Below are positions 35,401-50,410 of a DNA stretch of 64,000 bases, piece by piece. The stretch comes from Achromobacter dolens (lineage in GTDB: Bacteria; Pseudomonadota; Gammaproteobacteria; Burkholderiales; Burkholderiaceae_B): positions 1 to 64,000 of the forward strand of contig NZ_CADIJW010000028.1 in NCBI RefSeq assembly GCF_902859745.1, written 5' to 3'. Both the position numbers and the translations under genes were made by a program. Within the stretch, counting starts at the first letter, position 1. The number at the start of each line of letters is the position of its first letter. The notes under the pieces were generated by a model, which searched no databases, was not told the DNA's origin, and worked only from the letters and a program-made list of their open reading frames with translations.

Positions 35401-35634
35401 GCCAGGAATGCGCAACAACCCACGGTCACCGATACCCCTTCTTTTATCCCGGCGCCGACGTTCCGGTCTACGGAAATGGAAGTGGATGGATCCAGCAAGA
35501 GTGTCAAGATCGTAGGGCTGTTTCAGGTTTTCCAGGGGCAGGGCGGATTCTATTGCATGCGGGTCAAGTATTGGCCGGATGAGCACAGCCGTCCCGAGCT
35601 GGAAACGGGCTTTGAGTCTTGGGTATACATTTGA
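32461..35634 (+). CDS. VasX-like pore-forming T6SS effector
   Basis: This 1057-residue protein begins like VasX N-terminal-region proteins: Cys16, Cys23 and Cys26 before a GVAIMPLVPAP segment, then a MIX-like motif VRVPAAGYLYVL at about 105-116. A charged helical middle follows. Several hydrophobic helices lie at roughly 690-710, 735-755 and 800-860, and a beta-rich tail ends the protein. This is the plan of VasX and BTH_I2691-family effectors, which disrupt the target inner membrane. From about codon 280 onward the DNA is visibly less GC-rich than the N-terminal part. Four membrane-protein genes, probably immunity, follow. Confidence 0.85.
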   Translation: MAELSNARSAAAANTCGETKGKCINCDKQGGVAIMPLVPAPLPRPMVREAWANSEHGGASNTQWEIPAHRMYSTWLEKKLNAHAKVRLFDPRFDPVGLPVETYFVRVPAAGYLYVLKQDKTWDGYLLDKKGYYRKIPVAKMPEDAETTKPLSEACSSEGHNNTATQFITIDHVRSPKVWIAYSRYVWDRETRKDYEDDKDGCRTARMTELNLKDIADGKVGPGSTAPNTCKLTMPDITEIVADYAPADVQRCLNAGLHNPLQLRAEPEPQLLTSFMWAVNSKLPALQWGVGLVLPDPVGIVQELNLRRNIAAARASELEGALDPERARKRVIADIIQGMCLSAKANPGPFWAPNYGPERYQRNIDTGAWQSSLADSEGRVSLMNQIESVSALFCTWMGSPCWKQQQRSDFHDKDEMAGVRREFMAASCVAGSGHTERERNQIWGELWKLPIESPDNWYYRSLAAGNPDFLKLLADTSSVDEAITTIKAAVDMSKEFSQEYAKKIDTLREVLRAKRRYNEATAALVETVSGQLARLLVKDIKTYNRLMRGVAMTLVTREDLLVKPTILSGPLEEIKRLVEEAATKPLKGAAPVTLGDALPVGRGYLSQPGNLGQKGLSLSESVGRGVYLDLPSEKTTIASVVAFTVQKLEQGQTLSRALAGGTPLQELELPMRNPAQVNPYLETRVALAGSIAGTVLGAGIMFFQVQGAMNALNAMLKEDAGLDDRMVSGAGVAANVLALVSVGMDMSTTIVALVSQTAAKKVTTMGARFGLFAGVLEGGATLIGASYKIYQGKNTRSAYWSSASGLATIIAGGASYGLTMASVSTVGGAGVATVLGVTLGPVGWTLLLVAALGVAIWTAINAAGTDEGNRLPVEYWLDSGVFGKKEQLSNTQANPFAIKASGGQKAAPAIPFANLRDELQALERILLVAAGYLMPGARGGGYAYIHFHVSVPRYISQSRISIEFFRNERAGANTFRKLVAARNAQQPTVTDTPSFIPAPTFRSTEMEVDGSSKSVKIVGLFQVFQGQGGFYCMRVKYWPDEHSRPELETGFESWVYI

Positions 35635-36692
35635 TGAATCGAGCCAGCAAGAAGCAATCAGTGGGCAATGAAATTCCGGAAAAAAGCGGAGCGTGGGGCT
35701 GGCTGCTGCCCGTGGGAAAAGAGCGTGGAACGTCGACGCCTTCTGGCCATGATCATGTCGTCGAAATATCCCCGGCATGCCTGCGGCTCGTACCGCCCCG
35801 GGATTCCATGCGTGGGTATGGGGCGGCGGTAGCCTATCTGTTCGGATTGCTGATGAGTTTCACGGCGATCAATTTCATCGTGAAATTCGATCCCACCGGC
35901 CGAGGCTACGGCCAGGATTTCTTCATATTTGCAACGTTGTACGTTGTCCTTGCCTTGGTCGGCCTGATTACCGCATTGAAGCTGACGTTCGCGCTCGTGC
36001 CGGATACGGTGATCATCAGTCGCCGTCTGCGCCGCCTGTACGCGTGGGAAAAGAAGGCGGGCTGGATCGCGGTCGACTATGACCAGGCTGTTCCCTATGT
36101 TGCCAACCGCATGGTTGTCACCACGACCGGCGCGGGTGCGCTGTATCCCTTGCGTGTGGCGCAGCTGTGGCCGGGGAGCCGTCGTGTCAAGACGGGGGTG
36201 ACGCCCACCAGTCCGTTCGCCAGTCCGCAGTTGGCGGGGGAGGTCTGGGAATTCATTCGGTGCTACATGGACGGGGAACCGGCACAGGTGCCGCCGGTGG
36301 CGCTGATTCCCGATCATCGCGCCAATGCGTATGCGTGGATGGACCGTGAATTGTTCTCGGACTCGGTCGATCGGCGGCACCGCTTGAAGGGAGGACTGCA
36401 GTCGGTGGCGTTCTGGTTCTTCGGCAGCATGTATTACGTGCCCAATTGGCTGGAATACTGGATCCGTTGCCACGGCCGCCGTCCGGCGCTGCCGGCGGAG
36501 TTGGCCGAGTCGATGAAGTGGGAGGGCGAGAATCCTTATCCCATTATCCCGCCCACGCCTGAAGAGCGCTTGGCGATTGAAGGCAAGCTGCCGCATATGC
36601 TGAATCGATGGCGCTTGGTAAGCGTTTTCGGGCTATTGACCTGGGTGGTGTTGCCGGTCGGGTTTGTATCGGTATTCGCGTTTTTCTTGTAG
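35634..36692 (+). CDS. Membrane protein, candidate immunity A for the VasX-like effector
   Basis: This 352-residue protein has helices at about 60-85 and 98-122, a central soluble domain with RRLYAWEKKAGW, VVTTTGAGALYPLRV and IPDHRANAYAWMDREL, and a last helix at the extreme C-terminus (VSVFGLLTWVVLPVGFVSVF). ATG 35634 overlaps the effector TGA by one base. It resembles the DUF6708 group seen next to VasX-like effectors, but the family name is tentative. Inner-membrane immunity against a pore-former is inferred. The last 129 bases are repeated in diverged form at 38678-38806. Confidence 0.72.
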   Translation: MNRASKKQSVGNEIPEKSGAWGWLLPVGKERGTSTPSGHDHVVEISPACLRLVPPRDSMRGYGAAVAYLFGLLMSFTAINFIVKFDPTGRGYGQDFFIFATLYVVLALVGLITALKLTFALVPDTVIISRRLRRLYAWEKKAGWIAVDYDQAVPYVANRMVVTTTGAGALYPLRVAQLWPGSRRVKTGVTPTSPFASPQLAGEVWEFIRCYMDGEPAQVPPVALIPDHRANAYAWMDRELFSDSVDRRHRLKGGLQSVAFWFFGSMYYVPNWLEYWIRCHGRRPALPAELAESMKWEGENPYPIIPPTPEERLAIEGKLPHMLNRWRLVSVFGLLTWVVLPVGFVSVFAFFL

Positions 36693-36844
36693 TTGACTCC
36701 AAGGGCGTGGGTATGGGCTGAGCGTGAAAAGTAACGGCACGTGATCCAGGGATTTTCTGTCGTCCAGAAGAAGGAGGCGCGTTGTGGGCGGTTGCCGCAT
36801 CGCCGTCCTGTCGAACTCGATGACAACTATTAGGAAAATGAGAG

Positions 36845-37855
36845 ATGGAAGTACTGCCGGAACGCACCGGCACCTGGGGCTGGCTGCTGTCGGGACGGTC
36901 TGGCGTGCAGCCGGCCGCCGAGGGCATGGTTACCGAATTGACGCCGGCCTGCTTGCGTCTGACGGGGCCTTTCGAGGCGTCTCGCGGTTACGTGGCCTGC
37001 GTCTCGTTGGCGGCGGCGGTTGGGTTGACATTGCTGTTTCTCACCGCGCTGATCGATCTCCGTATGGGTAGGACCACCCTGGATACGGGCCTTGCGGTCA
37101 TGATGGCAAGTTATCTCGTCTGTGCGTTGATCGGCTGGGTCTGCGCTTATCGATCGGTTTTTTCACCCATCCAGGAGACCACTATCGTCAGTCGCGCACT
37201 GCGGCGCTTGTATGCGTGGGAAAAACGGACCGGCTGGACGTCGGTCGACTTTGACCGTGCGCTGGCTTACGTGGGCAACTATCACGTGGTCACCACGACC
37301 GGGGCGGGAGCGGCCTATCCATTGCGTGTCGTCGAGATCGCGCCCGACACGCGCCGCATTCTCAAGGGCGTGGCGCTTACCGCGCCATTCGACCGTCCCG
37401 AAGCCGGGGCGCAACTTTGGGAGTTCATCCGCTTGTACATGGACGCCGAACCCGCGGCATTGCCGCCGGTCGCGTTGGTGCCGGACCATCGCGTCAACGC
37501 GTATGCATGGATGGAGCGTGAACTCTTTCCCTATGCGATCGATCGTCATCACAGACTGGTGCGGCCGTTCGCGTTCTGGTTCTTCAGCGGCGCCTATTAC
37601 CTGCCGAATTGGATGGAGTGCTGGATTCGCCGATTCGGACGCCGCCCTGCGCTGCCGGCGGAATTGGCGGCAGTGGCGGGCTGGCAAGGCGACAACCCGT
37701 ATCGGATCGTCCCGCCGACGCAGGAAGAACTGCTGGCGCGTGCCGGGAATCTGCCGTCCATGAAAAGGCGATGGTGGCTGGCAAGTATTTTCGGTTTGGC
37801 GCTCTGGGTTGCCCTGCCGCTGTTTTTCGCGGGCGTCGTGGTGTCCAACTGGTAG
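36845..37855 (+). CDS. Membrane protein, candidate immunity B (paralogue of A)
   Basis: This 336-residue paralogue of the preceding protein has the same plan and shared segments: GTWGWLL at the start, RRLYAWEKRTGW, VVTTTGAGAAYPLRVVE, PDHRVNAYAWMERELFP and GRRPALPAELA, with two helices near 55-105 and one at the C-terminus. Identity by eye is about half. It follows a 152-base gap in which I see no clear gene or promoter. It is probably an extra immunity protein, perhaps against a related effector in other strains. Confidence 0.72.
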   Translation: MEVLPERTGTWGWLLSGRSGVQPAAEGMVTELTPACLRLTGPFEASRGYVACVSLAAAVGLTLLFLTALIDLRMGRTTLDTGLAVMMASYLVCALIGWVCAYRSVFSPIQETTIVSRALRRLYAWEKRTGWTSVDFDRALAYVGNYHVVTTTGAGAAYPLRVVEIAPDTRRILKGVALTAPFDRPEAGAQLWEFIRLYMDAEPAALPPVALVPDHRVNAYAWMERELFPYAIDRHHRLVRPFAFWFFSGAYYLPNWMECWIRRFGRRPALPAELAAVAGWQGDNPYRIVPPTQEELLARAGNLPSMKRRWWLASIFGLALWVALPLFFAGVVVSNW

Positions 37856-37917
37856 GCGGGTATTGACGGGGTCGGTTCCACGCCGGCGGTATGCATTCGA
37901 TGAGCGGAGTGCGATCG

Positions 37918-38679
37918 ATGGGATATTCGGAATCGGTAGCAATGACGACGGAACGTCATGACAAGGTCCGCAAGCTGGCCGGCAAGATCGCGGGACTGCG
38001 CCGCGTCAGGCGCTCGCGTGATTTCGTGATGGAGCAGCTAGGCGGCGGCGTTGGCGCGTCGGCGGTGTCCGCCGGCCTGGCGGAGATGGGGGGCGCGGCC
38101 ATTGCGATCGCTACCCTCGACAGTACGGAGAAGGCGGACTTCGTGGAGTTCACGCTCGGCGGCGAGCCCGTTCGAGGCTGGTTCTGGCGGTTTCCCTTTG
38201 ACGAGGGCGATGACATCGAACTGGTGGCCGAGCGCGACGGGCAGGCATGGATCGCCTACGGCGCCCGGCGGCCGGCCGATGCGCTGGTTGCGGTGTATCC
38301 GCATTGTTTCGAGGGGCGCCGGGCGCACTACGCTTCCACGTTCCGCTTCTGGGGCATCGTAGTGGGGGCGGTTTTTCTGTTCATGATGTGCCTGGATGCG
38401 ATTTTCGCAATGTTCAAGGGCACATTCAGCCTGAGCAGCCAGTTGTCGGCGTATGCGGTCTACCTGGCCTATGGGTTGCCGGCGTTGTTGCTGGTTTTCG
38501 GGTTCCTGGCTTGGCGCGGCGGTTGCAAGACGGAAGGGTTTGCGCGGATGGCAGAGACCATTTTCGCCGGCTTTGGCTGGCGGGATGCCAGCCGCATCAA
38601 TTTGCGCAAGACCTCCAGGGCGTTGCGTCGCGACGGTGATGGGCGTGACTATGGCACGCTCTATTTCCGCTACAGGTGA
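37918..38679 (+). CDS. Membrane protein C in the immunity array
   Basis: This 253-residue protein has a basic N-terminal region (KLAGKIAGLRRVRRSRDF), a Gly/Ala-rich stretch, a beta-rich segment and two membrane helices at about 138-158 and 175-195. ATG 37918 is chosen for its GGAG ribosome site (37906-37909); earlier in-frame ATGs at 37891 and 37900 lack one. Its length and plan differ from its neighbours. The stop codon is immediately overlapped by a fragment of gene A. The family is not assigned with confidence; T6SS immunity or accessory is inferred from position. Confidence 0.62.
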   Translation: MGYSESVAMTTERHDKVRKLAGKIAGLRRVRRSRDFVMEQLGGGVGASAVSAGLAEMGGAAIAIATLDSTEKADFVEFTLGGEPVRGWFWRFPFDEGDDIELVAERDGQAWIAYGARRPADALVAVYPHCFEGRRAHYASTFRFWGIVVGAVFLFMMCLDAIFAMFKGTFSLSSQLSAYAVYLAYGLPALLLVFGFLAWRGGCKTEGFARMAETIFAGFGWRDASRINLRKTSRALRRDGDGRDYGTLYFRYR

Positions 38680-38806
38680 GCGCTTGGCGATTGAAGGCAA
38701 GCTGCCGCATATGCTGGGCCGGTGGCGCTTGGTAAGCGTTTTCGGGCTATTGATCTGGGTGGCGCTGCCCATCGGGTTCGTGTCGGTATTTGCGTTTTTC
38801 CTGTAG
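38678..38806 (+). pseudogene. Remnant of an immunity-A-type gene (last 43 codons)
   Basis: These 129 bases match the last 129 bases of the immunity A gene (36564-36692) with about 13 mismatches by eye and no gaps, including the stop codon. They encode an intact C-terminal segment (ERLAIEGKLPHML to the stop), but there is no start or upstream part. The match begins exactly at the stop of the preceding gene, which points to recombination or gene replacement that left the tail of a third paralogue. Confidence 0.85.
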
Positions 38807-38910
38807 TTGGCGCGTTGACGCCGACTCGCTTGCGCCTGACGCGAGAGTATTCCCCGCTCGGTGCCGGGGGGCGCCTTGCCGGCGTTTTTCCTTGACCCAG
38901 GAGGGGCCCG

Positions 38911-39840
38911 ATGGATTTCAACGGACTCATGTCCAAGTTTCCCAACGACCGTCCACTGACGGAATTCGAGCGTGAGCACCGACTGCTGCAGAAAAAGCGG
39001 CTGGATGTCCCGCTGCTGGCGCAACTGTGCGTGGTGAGGATGAATTCCAACAGCCTGCTGTCGGTCGACCGTTGGTATGCCTGGCGTGGCTTCGTGGCGC
39101 TGCTGGGTGCGATCGGCCTGGCCTTCGGCATCGGCGGCGTCCTGATGCTGGCCTGGATCCTGGTGGTGGACCGGCTGCCCAATGAAAACGGCCTGTGGGA
39201 AGCCGTCTTCTTCGGCATGGCCATTTGCGCGGCGCTGGGCGCGGCGAGCGCCTGGGTCGCCCACAAGGAAATGTTCCGCTGGACCTACTATCCCATCGCG
39301 CTGGATCGCAAGCGCCGCCTGGTGCATGTGTTCCGGCTGGACGGCACCGTGCTGACCGCAGCGTGGGACAAGATCCATTTCACGCTGGGACGGGGCAGGG
39401 GCAGCTTCGGTTTGCTCAACTGGGATATCCGCGGACTGATCCTCGATCAGGACGGGGCCACGGTCAGGGAGACCTTTGCGTTCTGCATCGCCACCAGCCG
39501 CATCGAAAACGCATATTCGCATTGGGAGTTCCTGCGCCGTTACATGGAAGAGGGCCCGCAAGCGGTGCTGGACGCGGTGCTGTTCTGCATGCCGGTCGAC
39601 GGCAAGCGCGAGAGTTTCGCCTTCAGCAAGGAGCGCATCTTCGCCAACGATGCCCAACAGCCGGGCCTGGCCTGCCTGATCTTGGCGCCCGTCAACTACC
39701 TGCACGCGATCATGCGTTGGGCTGTCATGCGCACCAGCAGGATCCCGGCGTTTTCGCCCGAGATCGAGGCGACGCTGCGGCCTGAGCCAGGCGATCCGTA
39801 TGTTCGCGACGCCTCGATGATCCCGGAAGACCTGCGTTAA
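38911..39840 (+). CDS. DUF6708-like membrane protein, candidate immunity D
   Basis: This 309-residue protein has helices at about 63-90 and 102-118 and a soluble domain with YPIALDRKRRLVHVFRLDGT and NWDIRGLILDQDG. An IENAYSHWEFLRRYMEEGP segment resembles the WEFIRCYMDGEP segment of paralogue A. A near-perfect AGGAGGGG ribosome site precedes the ATG. It is more distant from A and B than they are from each other. Tentatively DUF6708; immunity against a membrane-active T6SS effector is inferred. It is the last gene of the T6SS island. Confidence 0.72.
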   Translation: MDFNGLMSKFPNDRPLTEFEREHRLLQKKRLDVPLLAQLCVVRMNSNSLLSVDRWYAWRGFVALLGAIGLAFGIGGVLMLAWILVVDRLPNENGLWEAVFFGMAICAALGAASAWVAHKEMFRWTYYPIALDRKRRLVHVFRLDGTVLTAAWDKIHFTLGRGRGSFGLLNWDIRGLILDQDGATVRETFAFCIATSRIENAYSHWEFLRRYMEEGPQAVLDAVLFCMPVDGKRESFAFSKERIFANDAQQPGLACLILAPVNYLHAIMRWAVMRTSRIPAFSPEIEATLRPEPGDPYVRDASMIPEDLR

Positions 39841-39845
39841 TTAAA

Positions 39846-39885
39846 CCCGGGTAATATTGACGAATAATTTAATCCGGGTAAAAAT
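39846..39885 (+). promoter_or_regulatory. Promoter with two CCGGGTAA repeats before the carotenoid oxygenase gene
   Basis: TTGACG (39857-39862) and TAAAAA (39879-39884), 16 bases apart, make a plausible sigma-70 promoter in an AT-rich island. Copies of CCGGGTAA at 39847-39854 and 39874-39881 lie just upstream of the -35 and across the spacer/-10, 27 bases apart, which is typical placement for repressor sites. The regulator is unknown. Confidence 0.45.
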
Positions 39886-39917
39886 TACATCCTTCTCCAA
39901 CCCGAAGGATGCAAGGC

Positions 39918-41252
39918 ATGACCCGATTCGACCTGAACACCGGCGCCACCGCGCCGCTTGCCGATGAAACCGACCTGACCGACCTGCCGGTGACGGGCAC
40001 GTTGCCGCCCGAGCTGGACGGCGCGCTGGTGCGCAACGGTCCCAACCCCCTGCGCGGCCGTTTCGAGGGCAACGACGTGCTGTCCTGGTGGCCCCAGCCG
40101 GCGATGCTGCACGCCATCACCTTGCGGGATGGCCGCGCCATGGACTACCGCAACCGCTGGGCCCGCACCCGCCTGTGGGCGCGCGAATACGCGCCCGCGC
40201 TGGCCGCCGACCTGCCCGACACCAATCCCAACGTCAACGTGCTGCGCCATGCCGGCGAAACCCTGGCGCTGGCCGAAGGCGGCGTGCCGCTGGCGATGAC
40301 GGCGGGGCTGGACTTCCTGGGCGCCTGCGGCCGCCATCCCGGCTTGGCGGGCGGCATGACCGCGCACCCCAAGATCGATGCCGTGACCGGCGAGTTGATG
40401 AGCTTTCGCGCCCATTGGGAGCGACCCTGGCTGCGCTATGGCGTGGCGGATGCCCACGGTCGGCCGCTGCTGGACCAGCTGATCGAGGTGCCCGAGCCGT
40501 CGATGATGCACGACATGGCCATCACCGCCCGCCACAGCATCCTGCTGGACCTGAACGTGGCCTACGATTTTTCGATGCTGTCGCGCGGCTACCGCATGCC
40601 GCTGCGCTGGCACGACGAGCGGCAATCGCGGCTGGGCGTGATCCCGCGCCATGGCGGGCCGGTGCGCTGGTTCGAGGTGGCGCCGTGTTTCATCCAGCAC
40701 GTGGTCAACGCCTACGAGGCCGACGACACCACGCTGGTGCTGGACGTGGTGCGCTATCCGGAATACCTGCGGCTGTCGCGTGACGGCGCGGGCTTCGTGG
40801 ACAGCCCGTTGGGGGTGCTGTGGCGCTACGTGATCGACCAGGCCGGCGGCGGCGTCAGCGAGCGCCAGCTGGATGACGCCGGCATCGAACTGCCGCGCAT
40901 CAACGATGGCCGCACCGGCCATGCCTATCGCTATGCCTACGCCGTGCATCAACCCAACAATCGCGAGATGCGCGGGGTGGTGCGCTACGACCTGGAGACC
41001 GGCGCGCGGCAGCGGTACGAGGTGCCGCCGGGCGACCAGAACAGCGAACCCGTGTTCGTGCCGCGCCCCGGCGCGCAGTCGGAGGACGACGGCTGGGTGC
41101 TGGTGTGCGTCTATCGACAGGAGGGCGACCGCAGCGACGTGGTGGTGCTCGATGCCCGTGACCTGACGGCCGGGCCGCTGGCCACGGTGCGCCTGCCGCG
41201 GCGGATACCGGCGGGTTTCCATGGCGCCTGGCTGCCACGCGAGGCGGGCTGA
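39918..41252 (+). CDS. Carotenoid cleavage oxygenase family protein
   Basis: This 444-residue protein is of normal length for the RPE65/CCO family. The opening GALVRNGPNPL is diagnostic. The four iron-binding histidines expected of the family are H150 (AHPKID), H198 (MHDMAIT), H261 (HVVNAYE) and H435 (GFHGAW). The enzyme would split a carotenoid, apocarotenoid or stilbene-type double bond with oxygen; the substrate cannot be told and no carotenoid biosynthesis genes are nearby. ATG 39918 has a GAAGGA site eight bases upstream; ATG 39909 overlaps that site and is less likely. Confidence 0.92.
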   Translation: MTRFDLNTGATAPLADETDLTDLPVTGTLPPELDGALVRNGPNPLRGRFEGNDVLSWWPQPAMLHAITLRDGRAMDYRNRWARTRLWAREYAPALAADLPDTNPNVNVLRHAGETLALAEGGVPLAMTAGLDFLGACGRHPGLAGGMTAHPKIDAVTGELMSFRAHWERPWLRYGVADAHGRPLLDQLIEVPEPSMMHDMAITARHSILLDLNVAYDFSMLSRGYRMPLRWHDERQSRLGVIPRHGGPVRWFEVAPCFIQHVVNAYEADDTTLVLDVVRYPEYLRLSRDGAGFVDSPLGVLWRYVIDQAGGGVSERQLDDAGIELPRINDGRTGHAYRYAYAVHQPNNREMRGVVRYDLETGARQRYEVPPGDQNSEPVFVPRPGAQSEDDGWVLVCVYRQEGDRSDVVVLDARDLTAGPLATVRLPRRIPAGFHGAWLPREAG

Positions 41253-41369: not shown

Positions 41370-42098
41370 CTAGCGGCCCTTGGCGCGCGCGCCTTTCCTG
41401 GCGGGCGCGCGCGACGTCTCCCTGGCCGGCGGCGCGGCGGCCGCCGTTACCTGTTCCATCCAGGCCAGCGTCTCGGTGTAGGTCACGAACTGCTGCAGAT
41501 AGCCCGGCGACAGCTCGCGCATCAACGACAGGGCGCGGTGCACCAGCTGGTTGGAATTGAGCGGGCCGGCGTTCTTGTGCACCTGCTCCTGCGACTGGCG
41601 CACCTGACGGTCGGCGCTCAGGCCGGACCAGATCTCGCGCAGGCCATCCAGCACCGGCATGTCCGGATAGGCATCGCGGCGCGCCTGCGCGGCGATGGCG
41701 TCGGGGTCTTCGCCGGGCGCGCCGGGGTAGGCGAGATACGCCGCCAGTTCCGCCAGCGGCCCGCGCGCGGGCTTGGGGGCTGCCGTGGCCGGCGCGGGGC
41801 TGGCATCGGGCGTGGCGGGATCGTCCAGCCCTTCGGCTGCGTTGGCCGCGCGGGCCGCGGCGACGCGCGCCGCATACGCCCGCAGCAACTGCGCCAGCCG
41901 CTCGTCCAGCCGGGCGCGGGCCGCGCCGGCGTGGGCGGCCGCGCGCCGGGCCAGCGCCTCGATGAAATGGAAACCGACCGGATCGAGCCGGTCGTCGCCG
42001 CGCTCGCGCCAGGCCTGCAAGGTGGCGAGCGTGGCGTCGGCGGGCGCGGTATCCGCGCCGGTCGTCAGCGCCGGGCCCAGGCCGCCATCACTGGCCAC
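41370..42098 (-). CDS. DUF2894 protein, last gene of the MotAB-like operon
   Basis: This 242-residue protein starts at GTG 42098, which overlaps the OmpA stop by 11 bases and has a GGAG ribosome site. An N-terminal helical region contains WRERGDDRLDPVGFHFIEALARR. An Ala/Pro-rich linker follows, then a C-terminal half with LREIWSGLSADRQVRQSQEQ and NAGPLNSNQLVHRALSLMREL, ending in a very basic tail. This matches DUF2894, a family of unknown function found with DUF802 and OmpA genes. No membrane helix is seen, so it is probably a cytoplasmic partner of the DUF802 tail. Confidence 0.85.
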   Translation of the reverse strand: MASDGGLGPALTTGADTAPADATLATLQAWRERGDDRLDPVGFHFIEALARRAAAHAGAARARLDERLAQLLRAYAARVAAARAANAAEGLDDPATPDASPAPATAAPKPARGPLAELAAYLAYPGAPGEDPDAIAAQARRDAYPDMPVLDGLREIWSGLSADRQVRQSQEQVHKNAGPLNSNQLVHRALSLMRELSPGYLQQFVTYTETLAWMEQVTAAAAPPARETSRAPARKGARAKGR

Positions 42099-42744
42099 GC
42101 GCGGGCTCCGCACTGTTGGTCGGCTTGGGAATGGGGGTGATCTCGACCCGGCGGTTCTTCGCGCGGCCGTCTTCATCGGCGTTCGAGGCCACCGGCTGCT
42201 CGGCGCCGAAGGCGGCGGCGAACACCAGCGACGACGGCACGCCTTCGTCGATCAGGGCGCGGGTGACGGTCAGCGCGCGCTGCGCCGACAGGTCCCAGTT
42301 GTCGGCAAAGCGCCGGTTGCCCTCGCGCACCTGCTGGTCGTCGGTGAAGCCGCTGACCATCAGGATCTCGTCATTGGCCTTCAGGTAGGCCGACAGCGGT
42401 TCGATCAGGCTTTTCAGCACCTCGCGGCCTTCCGGCTGCAATTGGTCGGAATTGAGCGCGAACAGCACGCTGCCGCTGATGCCGATGCGGCCGTTGACTA
42501 GCGTCACGCGGCCGGCCGCCAGCGGCGCGGCCAGGGCCTGCTCCAGCGTCTGGCGGCGCTGGGTCTCTTCCTGGCGCTGCTTGACCTCGCGTTCCAGTTG
42601 GGTCGACAGCTCGAGCTGCACGGCCACCACGCTCACCAGGATCAGCACGAAGGCGCCCAGCAGCACCGACATCAGGTCGCCGAAGACGGCCCAGGTCGGC
42701 ACCGCGGGTTCCACGCCGCCGTCGATGTCCTCGCCCGCGCTCAT
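42088..42744 (-). CDS. MotB-like OmpA-family protein
   Basis: This 218-residue protein has one N-terminal membrane helix (about 19-42) beginning WAVFGDLMSVLLGAF. Asp23 sits where MotB has its proton-binding aspartate. A short coiled region and a C-terminal OmpA peptidoglycan-binding domain follow (ALNSDQLQPEGREVL; VSGFTDD; LSAQRALTVTRAL; KNRRVEI). It overlaps the DUF802 stop by four bases. The pair has the MotA/MotB stator plan: an ion channel anchored to the wall. ZorB of Zorya phage defence is a comparable protein, but no direct relationship is shown. Confidence 0.88.
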   Translation of the reverse strand: MSAGEDIDGGVEPAVPTWAVFGDLMSVLLGAFVLILVSVVAVQLELSTQLEREVKQRQEETQRRQTLEQALAAPLAAGRVTLVNGRIGISGSVLFALNSDQLQPEGREVLKSLIEPLSAYLKANDEILMVSGFTDDQQVREGNRRFADNWDLSAQRALTVTRALIDEGVPSSLVFAAAFGAEQPVASNADEDGRAKNRRVEITPIPKPTNSAEPARGQ

Positions 42745-45700
42745 GCCGCCTGCGCTCCGGCGGTGGCGGCGCGCTGGCTGGCCAGTTCGCGCAGGTTCTC
42801 GACGATCTGCTTTTGCGACATGGTGCTCAGGTCGACCACTTCACGCGCCTGCGCCACGTAGTAGGCCAGTTGTTCGTCGCCACGGGCGATGGACTTGTCC
42901 AGCGCCGCTTCGATGCGTTCCAGGTGCGCCACGAGCCTGTCGTTGGACTCGCCGAACAGGCGCACCGCGGCGCCGAAGGCTTCGCCCAGGCTGGCCACTT
43001 CGGCCGCGCCGCTGGTCACCTGCGCGGCCACGTCGTCCAGGCGGGCGGTCTCGGATTCGACCTGCTCGGTGAACTGCGCGCCGACCCGGTCCAGCAGGTC
43101 GGTCGACGACGACACCAGCGCGTCCACCGCGCTGCGCTGTTCGCTGGAGGCGTGGTTGACGGCATCCAGCAGCGTCGCCAGCGTGTCCAGCAGGCGATTG
43201 CGTTCTTCCAGCATGGCGTTGTCGTAGGCCAGGCTGTCCGACAGTTTCTGGCGCATTTCGCCGATGACTTCGGCGGCCGCGCGCGGCGCTTCGGAGGCGG
43301 CCTGCACCAGTTGGCCGATCTCGGCGATGGTGCCGCTGGCGTGGGCCTCGGTCTGGGTGGCGATGTCCTGCGCGGTCTGGGCCAGGGTGGCGCAGATTTC
43401 CTGCTGCAGGGCGGCGCTGCGGGCGCCGGCTTGTTCCCATTCGTGGCGCAGCGCTTCGGCCATGCGGCCCAGCTCGCCGGTCCAGGCGGCCAGGCGTTCC
43501 TGGTCGCGCGCGGCCAGCTCGGCCTGCAGGCCGGCCTGCGATTGGCCCAGGGTCTGCAGCAGCGATGCCGAATGCTGCTCGAAGGCGGACGCCGCCGTGG
43601 TCAGGGCCTGCTGGTTGTCGCTGGCCAGTTTCTCGTTGGCCAGCTCCTGGCGTATCTGCGCCTCGGTCCAGGCCTGCGTCACGCCGCCAGCCGCCGTTTC
43701 CAGGCGGGCCGACAGGTTTTCCAGCAGCGCGGCCTGCGCCTGGGTCTGGGTGGTCAGGTCCTGCGCGGTGCGCTCCAGCAGTTGTTCCAGTGCCTGGTGG
43801 CGCGCGGCGGTCTGCTCGCCGGCCTGGCGCCATTCGCGGCCCAGGTCGGCGGCCATGGCGCCGAGCGAGGCGTGCCAGGCGGCCAGGCGCGCTTCGTCGC
43901 GCGAGGCCAGGGCGGCCTGCAGCTCGGCATGCGACTGGTCCAGCGTGCGCAGCAGCGACGCGGAATGTTGTTCGAACGCGGCGGCGGCCGTGGCCAGGGC
44001 CTGCTGGGTGTCGCCGGCCAGCTTCTCGCTGGTCAGTTCCTGGCGCACCTGCGCCTCGGTCCAGGCCTGGGTCACGCCGGTGGCGGCCGTTTCGATGCGG
44101 GCGGCGACCGTGTCCAGCAGCGCGGCCTGCGCGTCGGAGCGGGTCGCCAGTTCCTGCGCGGTCCGCGCCAGCGTCTGGCTGACTTCCTGCTGGCGGGCGG
44201 CGGCTTGCGCGCCGGCCTGTTCCCATTCGCGGCCGAGCTTGTCGGTCAGGGCGCCGAGCGTGCCGGCCCACGTGGCCAGGCGCTGCTCGTCGCGCGAGGC
44301 CAGGGCGGCCTGCAGGTCGGCGTGCGACTGGTCCAGCGTGCGCAGCAGCGTCGAGGCGTGTTGTTCGAAGGTGGCGGCGGCGGCGGCCAGGGCTTCGCGG
44401 TTGTCGCCGGCCAGCTTGTCGCTGACCTGCGACTGGCGCTCCAGCGCCTCGTGCCATTGCGCCGAGACGTTGCCGGCGGCGCTTTCCAGGCGCGCCGACA
44501 CGTTCTCCAGCAGGCCGGCCTGGGTCTGCGCGTGCTCGGTCAGTTCCTGGGCGCTGCGCGCCAGGGCCTGGTTGATTTCGAGCTGGCGCTCGGCGGCCTG
44601 CGCGCCGGCCTGCTGCCATTCCTGGCGCAGGGTGGCGGACAGCGCGCCCAGGGTTTCGGTCCACGCCGCCAGGCGTTGCTGGTCGCGCGAGGCCAGTTCG
44701 GATTGCAGGGCGGTGTGCGACTGGTTCAGCGTGCGCAGCAGCGACGCCGAGTGCTGCTCGAAGCTGGCGGCGGCGGCTGTCAGCGCCTGCAGATTGTCGC
44801 CGGCCAGTTTCTCGCTGGCCCGCTCCTGGCGGTTCAGCGCCACGTTCCAGGCTTCGGACATGCTGCCCGAGGACGCCTCCAGCCGTTCGGACACGCTGTC
44901 CAGCAGCGCGGCCGAGCGCTGCTCGAAGGTCTGCGCGAAGCGGTCCAGCGAATCGCGCAGGTCCTGCGCCAATGCTTCGCTGGCGCGCTGCTGGCCGGCC
45001 AGCGCCTGGTTCCAGATGCCGGCCACGTTGCTGGTGGCGGCCTGCAGGCCGGCGGTCATGCCGTCGAGCTGGCGCTGCACTGCCTGGGTCACGCTTTCGT
45101 GCAGCGAGGCGGTCTCGCGCGACAGGCCGGCCATGGTGGCCTCGACGGCGGGCTGCAGCGCCGCGCCGGCCGAACGGGCGCTTTCGGCCACGCTTTCCTT
45201 CATCGATTGTTCCATCACGGCGGCCAGGCGCGCGTAGGCGGCCTCGGCCTTGCCCTGGAACGCATCCTGGCTGGCGAGCTGGCGCTCGTTCAGCGTGTGG
45301 TTCTGCTGCTCCAGGTTGCGCATCATGGCGTCCAGGCGGTCGACCAGCGCGGGCATGGCCTCGGCCTGCCGTTGCAGCACTTCGGCCTGGCGCTGCAGCA
45401 GCTTGAAGCTTTCTTCGCGCTGGTGCGCCTGGCTGTACAGGCGCAGCGTGGTGGCCGCCTTGGCGTCCAGCAGTTGCGCCGCCTGGATGCGGTCGCGCCG
45501 GCACAGCGCCGCCAGCAGGCCCAGCATGGCGGAGGTGGCCACGCCCGCGATCGAGGTGCCGAAGGCAAAGCCCAGGCCCTTGACCGGCGCGGCCAGCGAG
45601 GCGCGGATGGCGGCCAGGTCGGTGGCGCTTTCCAGGGCGGTGCCGGTGCCGCGCAGCGTCACCACCATGCCCAGGAAGGTGCCCAGCATGCCCAGCAGCA

Positions 45701-46040
45701 CCAGCAGGCCGACCAGGTAGGGCGCCAACGCCGGGCCGGGCAGGCCCACGCGTTCGCCTTCGATGCGCAGCCGCACGGCGTTGCGCAGGCCGGCCGGCAA
45801 TTGGTCGAGCCAACCGCCCAGGCTGGCGGGCGCTTCCGACAGGTTGCCGACCGCGCGTCTGAGCGACGCGGTGGCCTGTTGGTAGCGCAGCAATTCAAGC
45901 GCGCCCGCCACGTAGCAGGCGCAGATCAGCAGCGTGACGGCCAGCGCCAGGGGGTTGGTGCCCGCGTAGCCCGCGCCGATCCAGCCGGTCACGGCCAGGC
46001 CGCAAATGAAAACAACGATATTGATCAGATACTTGGACAT
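42741..46040 (-). CDS. DUF802 protein: MotA/TolQ-like channel with giant repeat tail
   Basis: This 1099-residue protein has membrane helices at about 5-22, 31-50, 107-128 and 156-180. The last two carry MotA/ExbB-type sequence (LGMLGTFLGMVVTL; PVKGLGFAFGTSIAGVATS). The remaining 900 or so residues are almost all helical, rich in Ala, Gln, Glu and Leu, and contain four tandem units of exactly 131 residues plus degenerate copies, with recurrent FEQHSASLLRTLDQSHAELQ-like stretches. A cytoplasmic coiled rod is expected. ATG 46040 is chosen because it opens directly with the first helix. It lies 10 bases after the DUF3348 gene. The function is unknown; an ion-driven motor is inferred with MotB-like 42088-42744. 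Confidence 0.85.
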   Translation of the reverse strand: MSKYLINIVVFICGLAVTGWIGAGYAGTNPLALAVTLLICACYVAGALELLRYQQATASLRRAVGNLSEAPASLGGWLDQLPAGLRNAVRLRIEGERVGLPGPALAPYLVGLLVLLGMLGTFLGMVVTLRGTGTALESATDLAAIRASLAAPVKGLGFAFGTSIAGVATSAMLGLLAALCRRDRIQAAQLLDAKAATTLRLYSQAHQREESFKLLQRQAEVLQRQAEAMPALVDRLDAMMRNLEQQNHTLNERQLASQDAFQGKAEAAYARLAAVMEQSMKESVAESARSAGAALQPAVEATMAGLSRETASLHESVTQAVQRQLDGMTAGLQAATSNVAGIWNQALAGQQRASEALAQDLRDSLDRFAQTFEQRSAALLDSVSERLEASSGSMSEAWNVALNRQERASEKLAGDNLQALTAAAASFEQHSASLLRTLNQSHTALQSELASRDQQRLAAWTETLGALSATLRQEWQQAGAQAAERQLEINQALARSAQELTEHAQTQAGLLENVSARLESAAGNVSAQWHEALERQSQVSDKLAGDNREALAAAAATFEQHASTLLRTLDQSHADLQAALASRDEQRLATWAGTLGALTDKLGREWEQAGAQAAARQQEVSQTLARTAQELATRSDAQAALLDTVAARIETAATGVTQAWTEAQVRQELTSEKLAGDTQQALATAAAAFEQHSASLLRTLDQSHAELQAALASRDEARLAAWHASLGAMAADLGREWRQAGEQTAARHQALEQLLERTAQDLTTQTQAQAALLENLSARLETAAGGVTQAWTEAQIRQELANEKLASDNQQALTTAASAFEQHSASLLQTLGQSQAGLQAELAARDQERLAAWTGELGRMAEALRHEWEQAGARSAALQQEICATLAQTAQDIATQTEAHASGTIAEIGQLVQAASEAPRAAAEVIGEMRQKLSDSLAYDNAMLEERNRLLDTLATLLDAVNHASSEQRSAVDALVSSSTDLLDRVGAQFTEQVESETARLDDVAAQVTSGAAEVASLGEAFGAAVRLFGESNDRLVAHLERIEAALDKSIARGDEQLAYYVAQAREVVDLSTMSQKQIVENLRELASQRAATAGAQAA
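43300..44890 (-). repeat. Four 393-bp tandem repeats inside the DUF802 gene
   Basis: The anchor AGCGAYGCCG-like sequence recurs at 43561, 43954, 44347 and 44740, exactly 393 bases apart, with matching sequence on both sides. Each unit encodes 131 residues. Boundaries are approximate and degenerate copies continue outwards. Exact spacing with diverged sequence points to an old amplification held in frame. Confidence 0.85.
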
Positions 46041-46050
46041 AGTGTCCCGG

Positions 46051-46938
46051 TTAGCTGGCGCGAAGGGTGGCAAGCAGCCCTTCCACCGGTTGTAAACGAA
46101 CATCCAATTCGGCCAGCAGCACGCTGCGCATATCCTTGCGGAACGTCTCCAGCCACGCGCCCGGCGTGGGCGCGGATAAAGCGGGTTGCGGCGCCGCGCA
46201 GGCCGCCGCCTGCGCGGGCGCGGCGGCGGGAGCGTCGTCCGTTGCGCTGCCCCCCGGCGCGGCCGGCGCCTGGGCATCGGCCGCCGGCTCGTCCGCGGTT
46301 CCGGCCGGGACCCCGGTCTCGGCTTGCGCTTGCGCCGCCGCTTCCAGCGCGGCCTGTTCGGCCAGCCGCAGCCGGTCGAAATGCCCCTGCAGCAACTTCG
46401 GAATCGCGCCCAGCAGCGTCCGCTCGCGCGGCAGCAGGGCGCGGTCCATGATGGCGTCCACCACCGCCAGCCGCGTCATCTCCGGCGTTTTGGCCGCGAG
46501 CATGCCGCGCAGGCGGCTGCGCAGGTTGCCGATGCTGGTTTCCATCGTGTGCTGCAACGACAGATAACGCTGACGAAAATTCGAGTAATCGGCGTCGTCG
46601 GCCTGCAGCGCCGCCACCTTGGCGGACACCTGTCCCGGCATCTGCCGCTTGGCGGCCGTGGCCGCGGTGTCGCTGGCGATGGCATCGGCCAGCGTGGTGC
46701 GGACGCGCTCGCACTCGCGCTCCTCGGCGCTGCTGAACTGGCGCGCGCCCGGCGCGATCGCCGGCGGGCGGTTGTTCAGGGCGGCGGACAGGGCAATCGC
46801 GTCGGTCCAGCCGAGCCACTGGCTCAGATGATCCGACAACGGTTGCCGGGATTCCGGCACGTCGACATCCGTCAGGCGAGTCAGCAAGCGAATGAGCGTC
46901 GGGCCGCTTAAACCTGTGCGCTGTGGGGCTTGCAACAT
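46051..46938 (-). CDS. DUF3348 protein, first gene of the MotAB-like operon
   Basis: This 295-residue protein begins MLQAPQRTGLSGPTLIRLL. A helical region with AIALSAALN and FSSAEERECERVRTTLADAI follows, then LSLQHTMETSIGNLRSRLRG, an Ala/Pro/Gln-rich linker and a short C-terminal helix. This matches DUF3348, which occurs with DUF802. No membrane helix or signal peptide is seen, so it is probably cytoplasmic. ATG at 46938. The four genes 46938-41370 are tightly spaced and clearly one operon. The function is unknown. Confidence 0.85.
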   Translation of the reverse strand: MLQAPQRTGLSGPTLIRLLTRLTDVDVPESRQPLSDHLSQWLGWTDAIALSAALNNRPPAIAPGARQFSSAEERECERVRTTLADAIASDTAATAAKRQMPGQVSAKVAALQADDADYSNFRQRYLSLQHTMETSIGNLRSRLRGMLAAKTPEMTRLAVVDAIMDRALLPRERTLLGAIPKLLQGHFDRLRLAEQAALEAAAQAQAETGVPAGTADEPAADAQAPAAPGGSATDDAPAAAPAQAAACAAPQPALSAPTPGAWLETFRKDMRSVLLAELDVRLQPVEGLLATLRAS

Positions 46939-47061: not shown

Positions 47062-47107
47062 ATCAGCGGGATCAGGGCGGATCGGGGCGGATCGGGGCGG
47101 ATCAGGC
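47062..47107. repeat. 10-bp tandem repeat (ATCRGGGCGG)
   Basis: Four to five head-to-tail copies of a 10-base unit, ATCRGGGCGG with small changes, end at the stop of the propeller gene (47102). The unit equals about one helical turn. It may be a replication-slippage tract; no function is evident. Confidence 0.55.
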
Positions 47108-47743
47108 GCTGGCGCGTGGCCGGCGCACCGCGCGCACCCGGCCGCTGCTGGCGCCGCCGCAATAGAGCACGTCGCCGCCGTCCGACTCCAGGCCGGAGAC
47201 GTACACGCCGGGCGGCATCGCCAGTCGTTCCAACACCTCGCCACCGGCCGGGTCCACCCGCCGCAGCTCGCTGGCGTCGTCCTCCCAGGTGCCGTGCCAC
47301 AGGTCGCCATCGACCCAGGTGACGCCGGTCACGTAGCGGTCGGACGCGATGGTGCGCAGGACGGCGCCGGTGGCGGGATCGACCTGGTGGATCCTGCGGT
47401 CCTTGTAGCGCGCGATCCAGAGCATGCCTTCGGCCCAGGTCATGCCCGAATTGCCGCCGCCTTCGGGCGCCGGCACGGTGGCCAGCACGCGGCCCGATGC
47501 CGGGTCGATTTTCTGGATGATGCTGTCGGCCAACTGGTAGAGATGCTTGCCGTCGAAGGCGGTGCCGGCGCGGGCGATGACGTCGATGGTACGAACCACG
47601 TCGCCGCTGGCCGGATCCAGCGCGTGCAGCTTGTCGCCGACCGCGATCCAGATGCGGCTGCCGTCGTACGAGACGCCGTGCACGTCCGTGACGCCGGGGA
47701 AGGGGCCGTATTCACGGAGAATTTCTGCGGGCTTGGTTTTCAT
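47102..47743 (-). CDS. Beta-propeller repeat protein
   Basis: This 213-residue protein consists of blade-like repeats of about 40 residues: LHALDPASGDVVRTI, IQKIDPASGRVLATV, IHQVDPATGAVLRTI and LRRVDPAGGEVLERL. Each pairs with a WIAVG/LYQLA/WIARY-type strand. It resembles Vgb/SMP-30-like or glutamine-cyclotransferase-like propellers. No signal peptide is seen, so it is cytoplasmic. With four to five blades it is short for a closed propeller. It follows the regulator gene after 36 bases and is probably co-transcribed. The ligand is unknown. Confidence 0.75.
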   Translation of the reverse strand: MKTKPAEILREYGPFPGVTDVHGVSYDGSRIWIAVGDKLHALDPASGDVVRTIDVIARAGTAFDGKHLYQLADSIIQKIDPASGRVLATVPAPEGGGNSGMTWAEGMLWIARYKDRRIHQVDPATGAVLRTIASDRYVTGVTWVDGDLWHGTWEDDASELRRVDPAGGEVLERLAMPPGVYVSGLESDGGDVLYCGGASSGRVRAVRRPRASA

Positions 47744-47779
47744 GACGCTGTCCTTGTTGGGAGGGGTGACGTCTCCATG

Positions 47780-48997
47780 CTAGGCATTCGGCAGCGGGAC
47801 CGGGAGTAACAATGTCGTCGCGAAACCGGGCAGGGGCGGCGTGATCCAGCGCCGCGCCCGGCCCTGGCCGAACGAATGCGCCTGGCCGGAAGCCGCCAGC
47901 GCCTCCAGGGCGCGCTGCACCTGGCGCTGACTGGCGCCGGTGGCCAGCGCCAGCGCCGAACTGGACCAGGCTTGGCCGTCGGCCAGCAGCGCCAGCACGG
48001 CGGCGTGGCGGTCCCGCACCGGCGGCGTCAACACGGCAACGGTGTGCGCGGCTGGCATCAATGCAAAGCCTTGCCGCGTTGCCCGGATTTCTGCCCACGG
48101 CGCCAGGGCCGCCCGCAACCGGCCGATTTCCACCCGCAGCCGCGCGCGGTGCGAGTCATCGGGATGGCGGGTGCGGAACGTCTGTGCAATCAACGCGTCG
48201 CGCGGCGCGTCGTCCGGCCACGCCTGGCCCAGCGCCTGCGCCAGGGTGAAGAGCACGGGCCGGCTGGCCAGGGGCAGGGTGCGGCCCGCGCCATGCACGG
48301 CATAACGGCACGCGTCGATCACCAGCGTGTCGGACGCGAGCAGCGCTTGCACCTGCTCCAGGCGCAGCACCTGCGTGTCGCCGGCGCGCTGCAGGTGCGC
48401 GGCCGGCGCTTCCAGTACGAGCGACGCCTGGCGCACCTCGGCCTGCAGCGCCGGGATGCCGGCCGCTTGCGCGGCGCGCGCGGCCAGGTCCAGCGCGGCG
48501 CGTGCCGCCGTGGCTTGGAGGCGCCGCAGCGCAATGCCGGCCAGGGCCAGCTCGTGCACCGCTCGCAAGGCTGGCGGAAAAGGGGCGGGATTCAGTTCCG
48601 ACAGCACCTGCTCGGCCTGCTCCAGCCGTCCCATCAGGATCAGGCGGCGGCCGGCCAGATAGCCGGCGTAGGCCGCATTGCGCCGGTCGCCATGTTGCTC
48701 GAGCGTGGCGCGGGCGGCGTCGAGCGCCGTCTGTGGCCAGCCCAGGTCGCGCGCGGCCAGCGCGATCTCGGCCTCGGCCACCACGCAACGGGCGCGCGCC
48801 ACCGGATCCTTGGCGCCGAACGCGCGGGCGGCGCGGCGCACCAGCGGCCGGGCGCGTTCGAAGTCGCCCAACTGCGCCAGCGCGATGCCGCGCAATGCCA
48901 GCGCCGGCGCATCGTCGCGCAGCGCCACCCGGCTCAACGCGCCCAGCGGATCGCCGCTGGCCAGCGCCCGCGCCGCGGCCATGATCAGCCCGTCCAT
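47780..48997 (-). CDS. Regulator with TPR-like N-terminus and two winged-helix regions
   Basis: This 405-residue protein has helical TPR-like repeats at about 1-200 (ALALRGIALAQLGDFERARP; YLAGRRLILMGRLEQAEQVL). A winged-helix-like region lies near 215-310, comparable to the BTAD/OmpR type (RARLRVEIGRLRAAL). A C-terminal winged helix at about 330-385 (ALALATGASQRQVQRALEALA) is followed by GRARRWITPP. ATG 48997 is preceded by a GGGAG ribosome site. It is a predicted transcription factor, likely controlling itself and the propeller gene downstream. The signal is unknown. Confidence 0.72.
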   Translation of the reverse strand: MDGLIMAAARALASGDPLGALSRVALRDDAPALALRGIALAQLGDFERARPLVRRAARAFGAKDPVARARCVVAEAEIALAARDLGWPQTALDAARATLEQHGDRRNAAYAGYLAGRRLILMGRLEQAEQVLSELNPAPFPPALRAVHELALAGIALRRLQATAARAALDLAARAAQAAGIPALQAEVRQASLVLEAPAAHLQRAGDTQVLRLEQVQALLASDTLVIDACRYAVHGAGRTLPLASRPVLFTLAQALGQAWPDDAPRDALIAQTFRTRHPDDSHRARLRVEIGRLRAALAPWAEIRATRQGFALMPAAHTVAVLTPPVRDRHAAVLALLADGQAWSSSALALATGASQRQVQRALEALAASGQAHSFGQGRARRWITPPLPGFATTLLLPVPLPNA

Positions 48998-49180
48998 GAC
49001 GCTCCCGCCATCGTCCCCGCGCCCCGTTGCCACGTCCATTCGTGGATGCCGCCAATCTACCACCGCGCCGCGGGCGCGGGGAGTTCGTCGGCGATGCGGC
49101 AGGGCGCCTGCGTCTGCCGTGGCGTCGTCCCCATCCCCCACGGGTAGAATCCGAACCGGCATCTCCCAGGAAACCTGAAC

Positions 49181-50410
49181 ATGAGCGAGCATCATTTTTC
49201 CGCCGACGACATCCAGTCGCTGCGCCAACACGGCATTGCCCTGTTCGCCGATCGCGTCCTGATCGCGGTCCAGCCGCCCCTGGACGAGGCGCGCATCGAC
49301 GAGATCGAAGCGGCCTGTGCCGGCCCCTTGCCCGATGCGCTGCGCGACTTGTGGCGCCTGACCGCCGGCGGCGAACTGGCCTACGACCTGCATGCGCGCA
49401 TGGACGGCAACGAAGAGGCCCTCAGTTGGTCCGAGCTGTTCTATGACGGCAGTGACCAATACCGCGACCTGGCGGGCTGGATCGAGCACGAGCAGGAATG
49501 CGCCGAAGAGGCCGCCGCGGAACGCGGCGAGGCCTGGGACGGCAAGCTGCGCTATCTGCCGATCGGCGGCTTCGAATACTGCGACCGTATCTATGTGTGC
49601 GTGGAACCCGGCCCGCGGGCCGGCAGCATCGTGGCCTGGAAGCAGGGGCTGCCGGGCTGGACGCATGCGTTGCAGCAGGACGCCATCGCGACCGTCGCGG
49701 CGGACCTGCACGCGGCCTTTGCCGCGCTCTACCTGGAGCAGGATATCGACGACCCCGACAGCACCGGCATACGGGTGCTGGAATACCTGGACGAGCGCGT
49801 GGCCGATCACGGCATGCCGCAGGCTCTGGCGGACAAGCTGGCGGCGTTCTATCGGCGCGCGCTGGTGGACTGGCGCGCGCCGTTGGCGGCCGGCACGCTG
49901 GGCCAGTCGCCCACGCTGGCCAGGCTGGCCTTGCGGCATGCGTTGGCGCATGATGACGGCGCGCTGGTGGCGCACTTGGCGGCGCAGGGCGTGGGCTTTG
50001 ACCAGCCGTTGCGCGGCAGCGCGCTGGCGCTGGACGTGGCGCTGACGCAGCATGCCTATGCGGCGGCGCGGGCGCTGTTGCGGGCCGGCACGCCGGTCAG
50101 CGCGGAGGCGATCCATCGATTCGATCGCAAGCCGCCCGCCGATCTGGTGGCGCAGTTGCTGGCGCGCGGGGCGCGGGCCGACGGCCTGGGTATGGCGCGC
50201 TGCGTGGCCTGCGGGTCGCCCGAGGCCGCGCGCGTGATCGCCGCCGCCGCGGGCGAGGGGATCGCGGCGGCGTATGCCGAGGCGCGCGACGCGATGGCGG
50301 CCCGCTACGAGGAAGACCTGCGCCGCGTGCGGGCGGGCAAGCTGGGCCATTACCTGGGCGTGGACGGCCTGGCCGAACGGGTGGCCAACTTGCGCGCGTT
50401 TGTGCTTTGA
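49181..50410 (+). CDS. SUKH (SMI1/KNR4)-type protein with ankyrin-like C-terminus
   Basis: This 409-residue protein has an N-terminal SMI1/KNR4-like domain at about 25-150: IDEIEAACAGPLPDALRDLW with a following LTAGGEL, then LPIGGFEYCDRIYV. A C-terminal half of short helical pairs resembles ankyrin units (RLALRHALAHDDGALVAHLA; LDVALTQHAYAAARALLRAG). SUKH domains often form immunity proteins against contact-dependent toxins, but no toxin gene is adjacent. An AGGAAA ribosome site precedes the ATG. It is divergent from the regulator gene. Confidence 0.72.
   Translation: MSEHHFSADDIQSLRQHGIALFADRVLIAVQPPLDEARIDEIEAACAGPLPDALRDLWRLTAGGELAYDLHARMDGNEEALSWSELFYDGSDQYRDLAGWIEHEQECAEEAAAERGEAWDGKLRYLPIGGFEYCDRIYVCVEPGPRAGSIVAWKQGLPGWTHALQQDAIATVAADLHAAFAALYLEQDIDDPDSTGIRVLEYLDERVADHGMPQALADKLAAFYRRALVDWRAPLAAGTLGQSPTLARLALRHALAHDDGALVAHLAAQGVGFDQPLRGSALALDVALTQHAYAAARALLRAGTPVSAEAIHRFDRKPPADLVAQLLARGARADGLGMARCVACGSPEAARVIAAAAGEGIAAAYAEARDAMAARYEEDLRRVRAGKLGHYLGVDGLAERVANLRAFVL

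Follow-up and report, generated by a model that had tools for sequence, protein, structure and literature searches.

A Zorya type III operon in Achromobacter dolens: a putative wall-anchored ion motor with a modular rod and a near-core marker gene in four genera

The window analysed here, the first 64,000 nt of contig NZ_CADIJW010000028.1 of Achromobacter dolens (host genome, 6.29 Mb), contains at 41370–46938 four minus-strand genes whose products resemble parts of an ion-driven machine of the cell envelope. Two questions arise from this locus: whether the machine is a new one, and whether it serves defence against phages or the upkeep of the envelope. From the sequence alone, the original prediction had described a DUF3348-DUF802-OmpA-DUF2894 set recalling ZorA and ZorB of Zorya phage defence, with two other partners in place of ZorC–E and with no described function.

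Gene content and assignment of the operon

The gene order is DUF3348, DUF802 protein (ZorA), OmpA/MotB protein (ZorB) and DUF2894, all on the minus strand. The first gene (46051–46938) encodes a 295-aa DUF3348 protein, which matches PADLOC model PDLC00656 over residues 1–295 (E 2e-160) and Pfam PF11828 (4.8e-89). The 1099-aa product of zorA (42741–46040) comprises a membrane and motor domain at about residues 1–182 followed by a long, putatively helical tail; it matches PADLOC ZorA3 (PDLC00650) over residues 1–1099 (E 0, 1831.5 bits) and Pfam DUF802 in five stretches (7.4e-59), and the peptides quoted beforehand as MotA/TolQ-type helices are present in its translation. The 218-aa product of zorB (42088–42744) has a single predicted transmembrane helix and an OmpA-like peptidoglycan-binding domain at residues 94–198 (PADLOC ZorB3, 1.1e-118; Pfam OmpA, 6.5e-19). 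The last gene (41370–42098) encodes a 242-aa DUF2894 protein (PADLOC PDLC00655, 8.3e-140; Pfam PF11445, 9.8e-57); it starts with GTG, overlapping zorB, and has an alternative open ATG further upstream at 42176. By their coordinates, DUF3348 and zorA are separated by 10 nt, zorA and zorB overlap by 4 nt, and zorB and the DUF2894 gene overlap by 11 nt; such short gaps and overlaps on one strand are the arrangement expected of an operon. Pfam matches to all four products, together with the gene coordinates, bear out the four-gene set that had been predicted. A promoter scan detected no promoter, terminator-like sites were no more numerous than chance, and the window contains no tRNA gene.

Zorya type III was defined in 2021, in the PADLOC paper, as zor gene pairs with a DUF3348 and a DUF2894 gene on either side, these two being the defining genes of the type, with 6,401 cases reported (PMC8565338). 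At the present locus zorA and zorB are adjacent, genes for DUF3348 and DUF2894 lie on their flanks, and all four products match the PADLOC-DB type III models over nearly their full length. ZorA scores 1831 bits with ZorA3, against 32 with the best ZorA1 and 29 with the best ZorA2 model; ZorB scores 392 with ZorB3, 70 with ZorB1 and 28 with ZorB2. On these profile matches the operon at 41370–46938 is assigned to Zorya type III, a known bacterial anti-phage system and not a new one. The likeness to ZorA and ZorB seen in the original prediction thus stands, as do the two partners that replace ZorC–E, which correspond to the published definition; the claim that no function had been described does not, since anti-phage activity of type III was published in 2021 (PMC8565338) and PADLOC-DB labels all four genes. 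As reported there, at least one phage plaques less efficiently on E. coli that carries the type III system of Stenotrophomonas nitritireducens (PMC8565338). The operon agrees with this published type in its four genes, their order, the domains they encode and profile matches over almost the full length, and differs from the tested Stenotrophomonas system in being an Achromobacter version with a 1099-aa ZorA bearing 131-aa tail modules.

Annotation may obscure this identity. The NCBIfam ZorA models give at most 22.5 bits with this ZorA, against cut-offs of 190–500, so annotation by NCBIfam only could miss the Zorya assignment, and some plasmid records label ZorA a "DUF802 domain-containing protein." The partner names are also swapped between sources: DUF3348 is ZorF and DUF2894 is ZorG in PMC8565338, whereas PADLOC-DB lists DUF3348 as ZorG3 and DUF2894 as ZorF3. 

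The operon is unlike types I and II in having no ZorC, ZorD or ZorE alongside, none of the seven neighbouring genes giving a PADLOC match. EH_Signature, the ZorC domain, was not found in the window's genome.

Motor, rod and partner proteins

Hydrophobic segments lie at about residues 1–27, 26–53, 98–131 and 158–180 of ZorA, and a single, transmembrane-like one at 15–50 of ZorB; the same scan gave no hydrophobic transmembrane segment in the DUF3348 and DUF2894 proteins. The original prediction had likened the DUF802 protein to MotA/TolQ and its neighbor to MotB. In profile searches, the motor part of ZorA matched among solved chains only type I ZorA (8vvn, E 5.4e-06), and ZorB matched MotB, PomB and OmpA-family structures. 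Residues of a polar ring in ZorA, Thr121 (codon 45678–45680, minus strand) and Thr162-Ser163 (codons 45552–45557, minus strand), are invariant (58/58) and align with Thr and Thr-Ser, respectively, in 8vvn. Asp23 of ZorB (codon 42676–42678, minus strand), the counterpart of the channel aspartate, is invariant in 59/59 aligned ZorB proteins, as are D135, N149 and R156. Both the MotB-type helix with its aspartate and the OmpA wall-binding domain are found where they had been predicted. It is through residues such as D135 and R156 that OmpA domains touch peptidoglycan.

For types I and II, structures with 5:2 ZorA:ZorB stoichiometry have been solved, in which the channel aspartate of ZorB (D24 in type I, D21 in type II) packs against a Ser/Thr ring (PMC11890865). 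These systems share with the present one the ZorA motor core, the key aspartate and OmpA domain of ZorB, and the long ZorA rod, and by analogy a 5:2 assembly would be expected of type III as well. The channel aspartate, the Thr/Ser ring and the OmpA-like wall-binding domain are common to the MotAB/PomAB stators too, and the match of the ZorB OmpA domain to MotB and PomB structures is what might be expected if the operon simply encoded another stator for the flagellum or a system of the TolQR/ExbBD kind. That reading is nevertheless exceedingly improbable: all of the genes fit models of Zorya type III, with 1831 bits for ZorA, and type III differs from the stators in its very long rod (about 870 residues) and its two additional, constant partner genes, while nothing ties the operon to motility.

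The rod is formed by the part of ZorA after residue 230, which has 869 residues and only 2 prolines. Its hydrophobicity has a period of 3.645 residues with a power of 27.5, a value that its tandem repeats inflate, whereas none of 300 shuffles exceeded 10.9. Judged by this periodicity and by the scarcity of proline, ZorA has the long helical cytoplasmic tail characteristic of Zorya, in agreement with the very long helical rod predicted for the DUF802 protein; it would measure about 130 nm if fully helical. The tail contains tandem 393-bp (131-aa) modules, present in 3.7 copies at 43476–44913 on the minus strand (Tandem Repeats Finder: 77% matches, score 1459; self-comparison: lag 131, score 1215).

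Lengths of ZorA range from 555 to 1229 residues among 135 proteins, a set that counts some genomes twice and includes, also twice, one frame-broken ZorA. In Achromobacter pulmonis ANB-1 (L074/L166) the ZorA frame ends at residue 1039 and the tail resumes in another frame, which reflects either a frameshift or a mistake in the assembly. When 79 proteins (78 loci plus the window) were each compared with themselves, 25, all of 705 residues or fewer, showed no strong repeat. A top lag of 87 residues was found in 26, with lengths near 785, 872, 959, 1045 or 1132, and a lag of 131 in 16, all from Achromobacter and including the window; the remaining 12 have other repeat units, e.g., 62, 94, 113, 116, 149 or 204. 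By these comparisons the tail grows by whole modules, to about 697 residues + n × 87 or, in Achromobacter, by modules of 131 residues, and the addition of whole modules accounts for the spread of lengths. This claim rests on self-comparison and not on the periodogram of ZorA lengths, in which the signal is weak. The idea that module lengths preserve the phase of the helix was rejected: the apparent fit to a period of 3.645 is circular, and at a period of 3.67, estimated from the 25 ZorA proteins without a strong repeat, an equally good fit was obtained in 10317 of 20000 random sets. Types I and II differ in that the size of their components is reported to be well conserved within each type (PMC11890865), so the wide, modular variation in tail length looks like a feature of type III.

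The authors who defined the type proposed that the DUF3348 and DUF2894 partners regulate ZorAB (PMC8565338). The AlphaFold model of the DUF2894 protein, made with the first residue omitted, is all-helical (mean pLDDT 73, pTM 0.41) and confident only at about residues 17–89, and the family consensus has a Lys/Arg-rich C-terminal tail. No solved structure was convincingly related to either partner in profile searches (best E 0.25 for DUF2894 and 5 for DUF3348), and a PHROGs search matched neither. PADLOC-DB, Pfam and NCBIfam assign neither to a nuclease-like or helicase-like family and so point to no effector, which we count against the defence explanation. The Pfam DUF2894 model also scored above its cut-off in Corynebacterium glutamicum, a control genome in which a Zorya III operon is not expected.

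Conservation, distribution and genomic setting

The original prediction had been staked on co-occurrence of the four genes across genomes, which was confirmed. Their order is the same in 56 of 60 loci gathered through DUF3348 or DUF2894 matches, the exceptions being two weak, false DUF3348 matches, one locus cut by a contig end and one whose DUF3348 gene only Pfam detected. Of the 80 loci gathered through ZorA, 77 keep this order, and the three misses lie at contig ends; so constant an order is not due to chance. All four genes are under purifying selection, which is weakest on DUF2894: median dN/dS in Achromobacter is 0.100 for ZorB, 0.135 for ZorA residues 1–230, 0.184 for DUF3348 and 0.359 for DUF2894 (190 pairs for each gene from 20 sequences, the frame-broken locus being omitted). 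Zor distances correlate with those of rpoB (Mantel r 0.87 in 30 genomes and 0.69 in 21 Achromobacter; neither value was reached in any of 5000 permutations). The trees share 12 of 27 splits; of the 22 well-supported Zor splits, the rpoB tree contains 10 and contradicts 11 with good support of its own. Descent has been vertical in broad terms only, and strict co-descent is not claimed because rpoB is a single, slowly changing gene.

Counts within genera used DUF3348 as the sole marker, the other three genes being checked in the loci that were fetched. DUF3348 is present in 41 of 43 Achromobacter genomes, both misses being incomplete (78 and 57% complete), in 117 of 127 Paraburkholderia genomes (a few matches partial or split), in 10 of 11 Pigmentiphaga genomes and in 77 of 81 genomes of one genus from another order of the class; the last three genera were chosen because each held a match, as all four did. 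Their 15 misses (Paraburkholderia 10, Pigmentiphaga 1, the genus from the other order 4) include only 2 in lower-quality genomes. Beyond these genera DUF3348 was found in 18 of 300 genomes across the order, 2 of them false, and in 7 of 274 across the class; its absence from most of these genomes indicates that the system is not needed in general. The two false matches (G051 and G183) are weak ones, set aside because no other zor gene was found within the surrounding 20 kb. In the family, 65 of 200 genomes, from 17 of 43 genera, carry DUF2894, and the genus g376 is mixed, with one match and one miss. Some genera thus carry type III almost throughout, most sampled genera lack it, and mixed genera exist.

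Control defence markers are patchy in Achromobacter and Paraburkholderia, unlike the near-universal DUF3348: EH_Signature was found in 2/43 and 10/127 genomes, respectively, and JetD, a marker of Wadjet, in 2/43 Achromobacter genomes. The ZorA motor domain was found in none of 50,697 phage records and in 27 of 72,556 plasmid records, all of at least 366 kb, of which 7 were called mobilizable and 20 not. 

Upstream of the operon, on its strand, 47102–49006 holds a beta-propeller-like gene (Glu_cyclase_2, 1.3e-10) and an adjoining gene with a sub-threshold HTH match. Of 20 Achromobacter loci, 19 have a beta-propeller-like gene and a helical, HTH-like gene no more than 7 kb upstream; in 16 of these the pair is oriented opposite to that in the window. 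The operon occupies a stable position on the chromosome, and its presence in nearly all species of the genus is unusual in a defence system. With no PADLOC match among the seven neighbors tested, no defence island is seen around the operon. It does not fit the pattern of a mobile accessory system, which would be patchy in relatives and would reside on mobile elements or in defence islands. The GC content of the operon (0.71–0.73) is similar to that of its upstream DNA (0.70–0.73). At 32000–40000 of the window it is 0.59–0.64, against 0.70–0.73 around the operon, and this stretch looks like acquired DNA adjoining it.

PMC8565338 describes the new Zorya subtypes as patchy at the genus level and reads this as a sign of horizontal transfer. 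Here the type III marker occurs in nearly all species of four genera, albeit genera selected for a match, and this mismatch makes a choice between core immunity and a housekeeping envelope motor a testable question. In the open-licence literature searched, neither the ZorA tail modules nor a near-core distribution of type III was found described.

Proposed mechanism and the question of defence

The locus is read as the Achromobacter form of Zorya III, in which a MotAB-like ZorAB ion motor with a cytoplasmic rod would act with DUF3348 and DUF2894 partners, and this explanation as a whole is quite probable. Its parts that the present analysis shows directly are membership of the family, conservation of residues in the motor and the wall-binding domain, the order of the genes and the rod-like tail. 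The working scheme is most likely that of types I and II, whose published mechanism is the source of the analogy (PMC11890865); stoichiometry, trigger, rotation and the job of the partners in type III are all carried over in this way. Five ZorA and two ZorB chains would assemble as an ion-driven motor in the inner membrane, the OmpA domain of ZorB holding the peptidoglycan and ions passing at ZorB Asp23 within the Thr/Ser ring of ZorA, while the five ZorA chains would bundle their C-terminal regions into the rod that extends into the cytoplasm. When the wall is disturbed by a phage or another insult, ZorB may sense or grip the disturbance; its binding, together with ion flow, would turn or strain the rod, and this motion would engage the small, soluble DUF3348 and DUF2894 proteins, which, taking the part of ZorC, ZorD and ZorE, would carry the response out or regulate it.

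The explanation as a whole is favored by near full-length matches to the PADLOC models, the four-gene order, Asp23 and the Thr/Ser ring, the match to 8vvn, the matches of ZorB to MotB, PomB and OmpA-family structures and purifying selection, as well as by the protection reported for the Stenotrophomonas type III system in E. coli (PMC8565338). Genus-wide presence, unlike the patchy spread of the two other defence markers in Achromobacter, argues against it. In infected Burkholderia cenocepacia K56-2, altered expression is reported to have been limited, among the genes of Zorya III, to the first one or two, and knock-down of any of 34 predicted defence genes, 3 of them with too few guides, to have left fitness with phage Bcep176 unchanged, a null result for which the authors give several possible reasons, including that the systems are perhaps inactive against Bcep176 (PMC12584637). 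The near-universal DUF3348 of four genera, taken with the modular tail, points to core immunity or to an added role in the envelope. A true defence system that has become fixed in these genera as broad and cheap, which is a version of the main explanation, has about an even chance of being correct: it reconciles phage protection in E. coli (PMC8565338) with near-core distribution and purifying selection, but the literature searched yielded no account of a native host being protected, and the one native screen showed none (PMC12584637).

It is unlikely, though not strongly so, that the operon is mainly a housekeeping machine that senses wall stress, maintains envelope tension or organises the cell body, with phage protection as a side effect or a product of over-expression only. 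The near-core counts of DUF3348 (41/43, 117/127, 77/81 and 10/11, against 2/43, 2/43 and 10/127 for other defence markers) are what such a machine would show, although three of the genera were picked for holding a match, most other genomes of the order (18/300, 2 false) and class (7/274) lack DUF3348, and losses occur inside genera (15 misses, only 2 in lower-quality genomes; g376 mixed). Two upstream neighbors kept in 19/20 Achromobacter loci and Zor distances that track rpoB (Mantel r 0.87 and 0.69) fit it as well, but the two trees disagree in detail; likewise, 0/50,697 phage records and 27/72,556 plasmids, all of at least 366 kb, are set against the 7/27 plasmids called mobilizable, and a GC content like that of the upstream side and the lack of PADLOC matches among seven neighbors against a low-GC stretch close by, below 40 kb. 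Finally, the native-host knock-down without effect, with one phage (PMC12584637), agrees with a housekeeping role, whereas E. coli does gain phage protection from a type III system (PMC8565338).

Unlikely to the same degree is the proposal that type III is not in the first place a mobile defence island but a core wall-anchored ion motor of several Burkholderiales genera and a second lineage, with a modular rod whose length is set by duplication of whole modules; the native job of this motor would be to sense or transmit envelope stress, and phage immunity would be one of its outputs. If this is true, the mobile Zorya I and II systems would be weaponised relatives of a core machine. Natural ZorA proteins, of 555 to 1229 residues, already supply a series of rods of different lengths with which to probe what the rod does.

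Other genes lie near the operon. A carotenoid-oxygenase (RPE65) family gene at 39909–41252 is convergent with it, and a DUF6708 gene at 38911–39840 lies in the low-GC stretch. The SUKH-1 (SMI1/KNR4) family is often linked to toxin immunity, and a 409-aa protein with this domain is encoded at 49181–50410.
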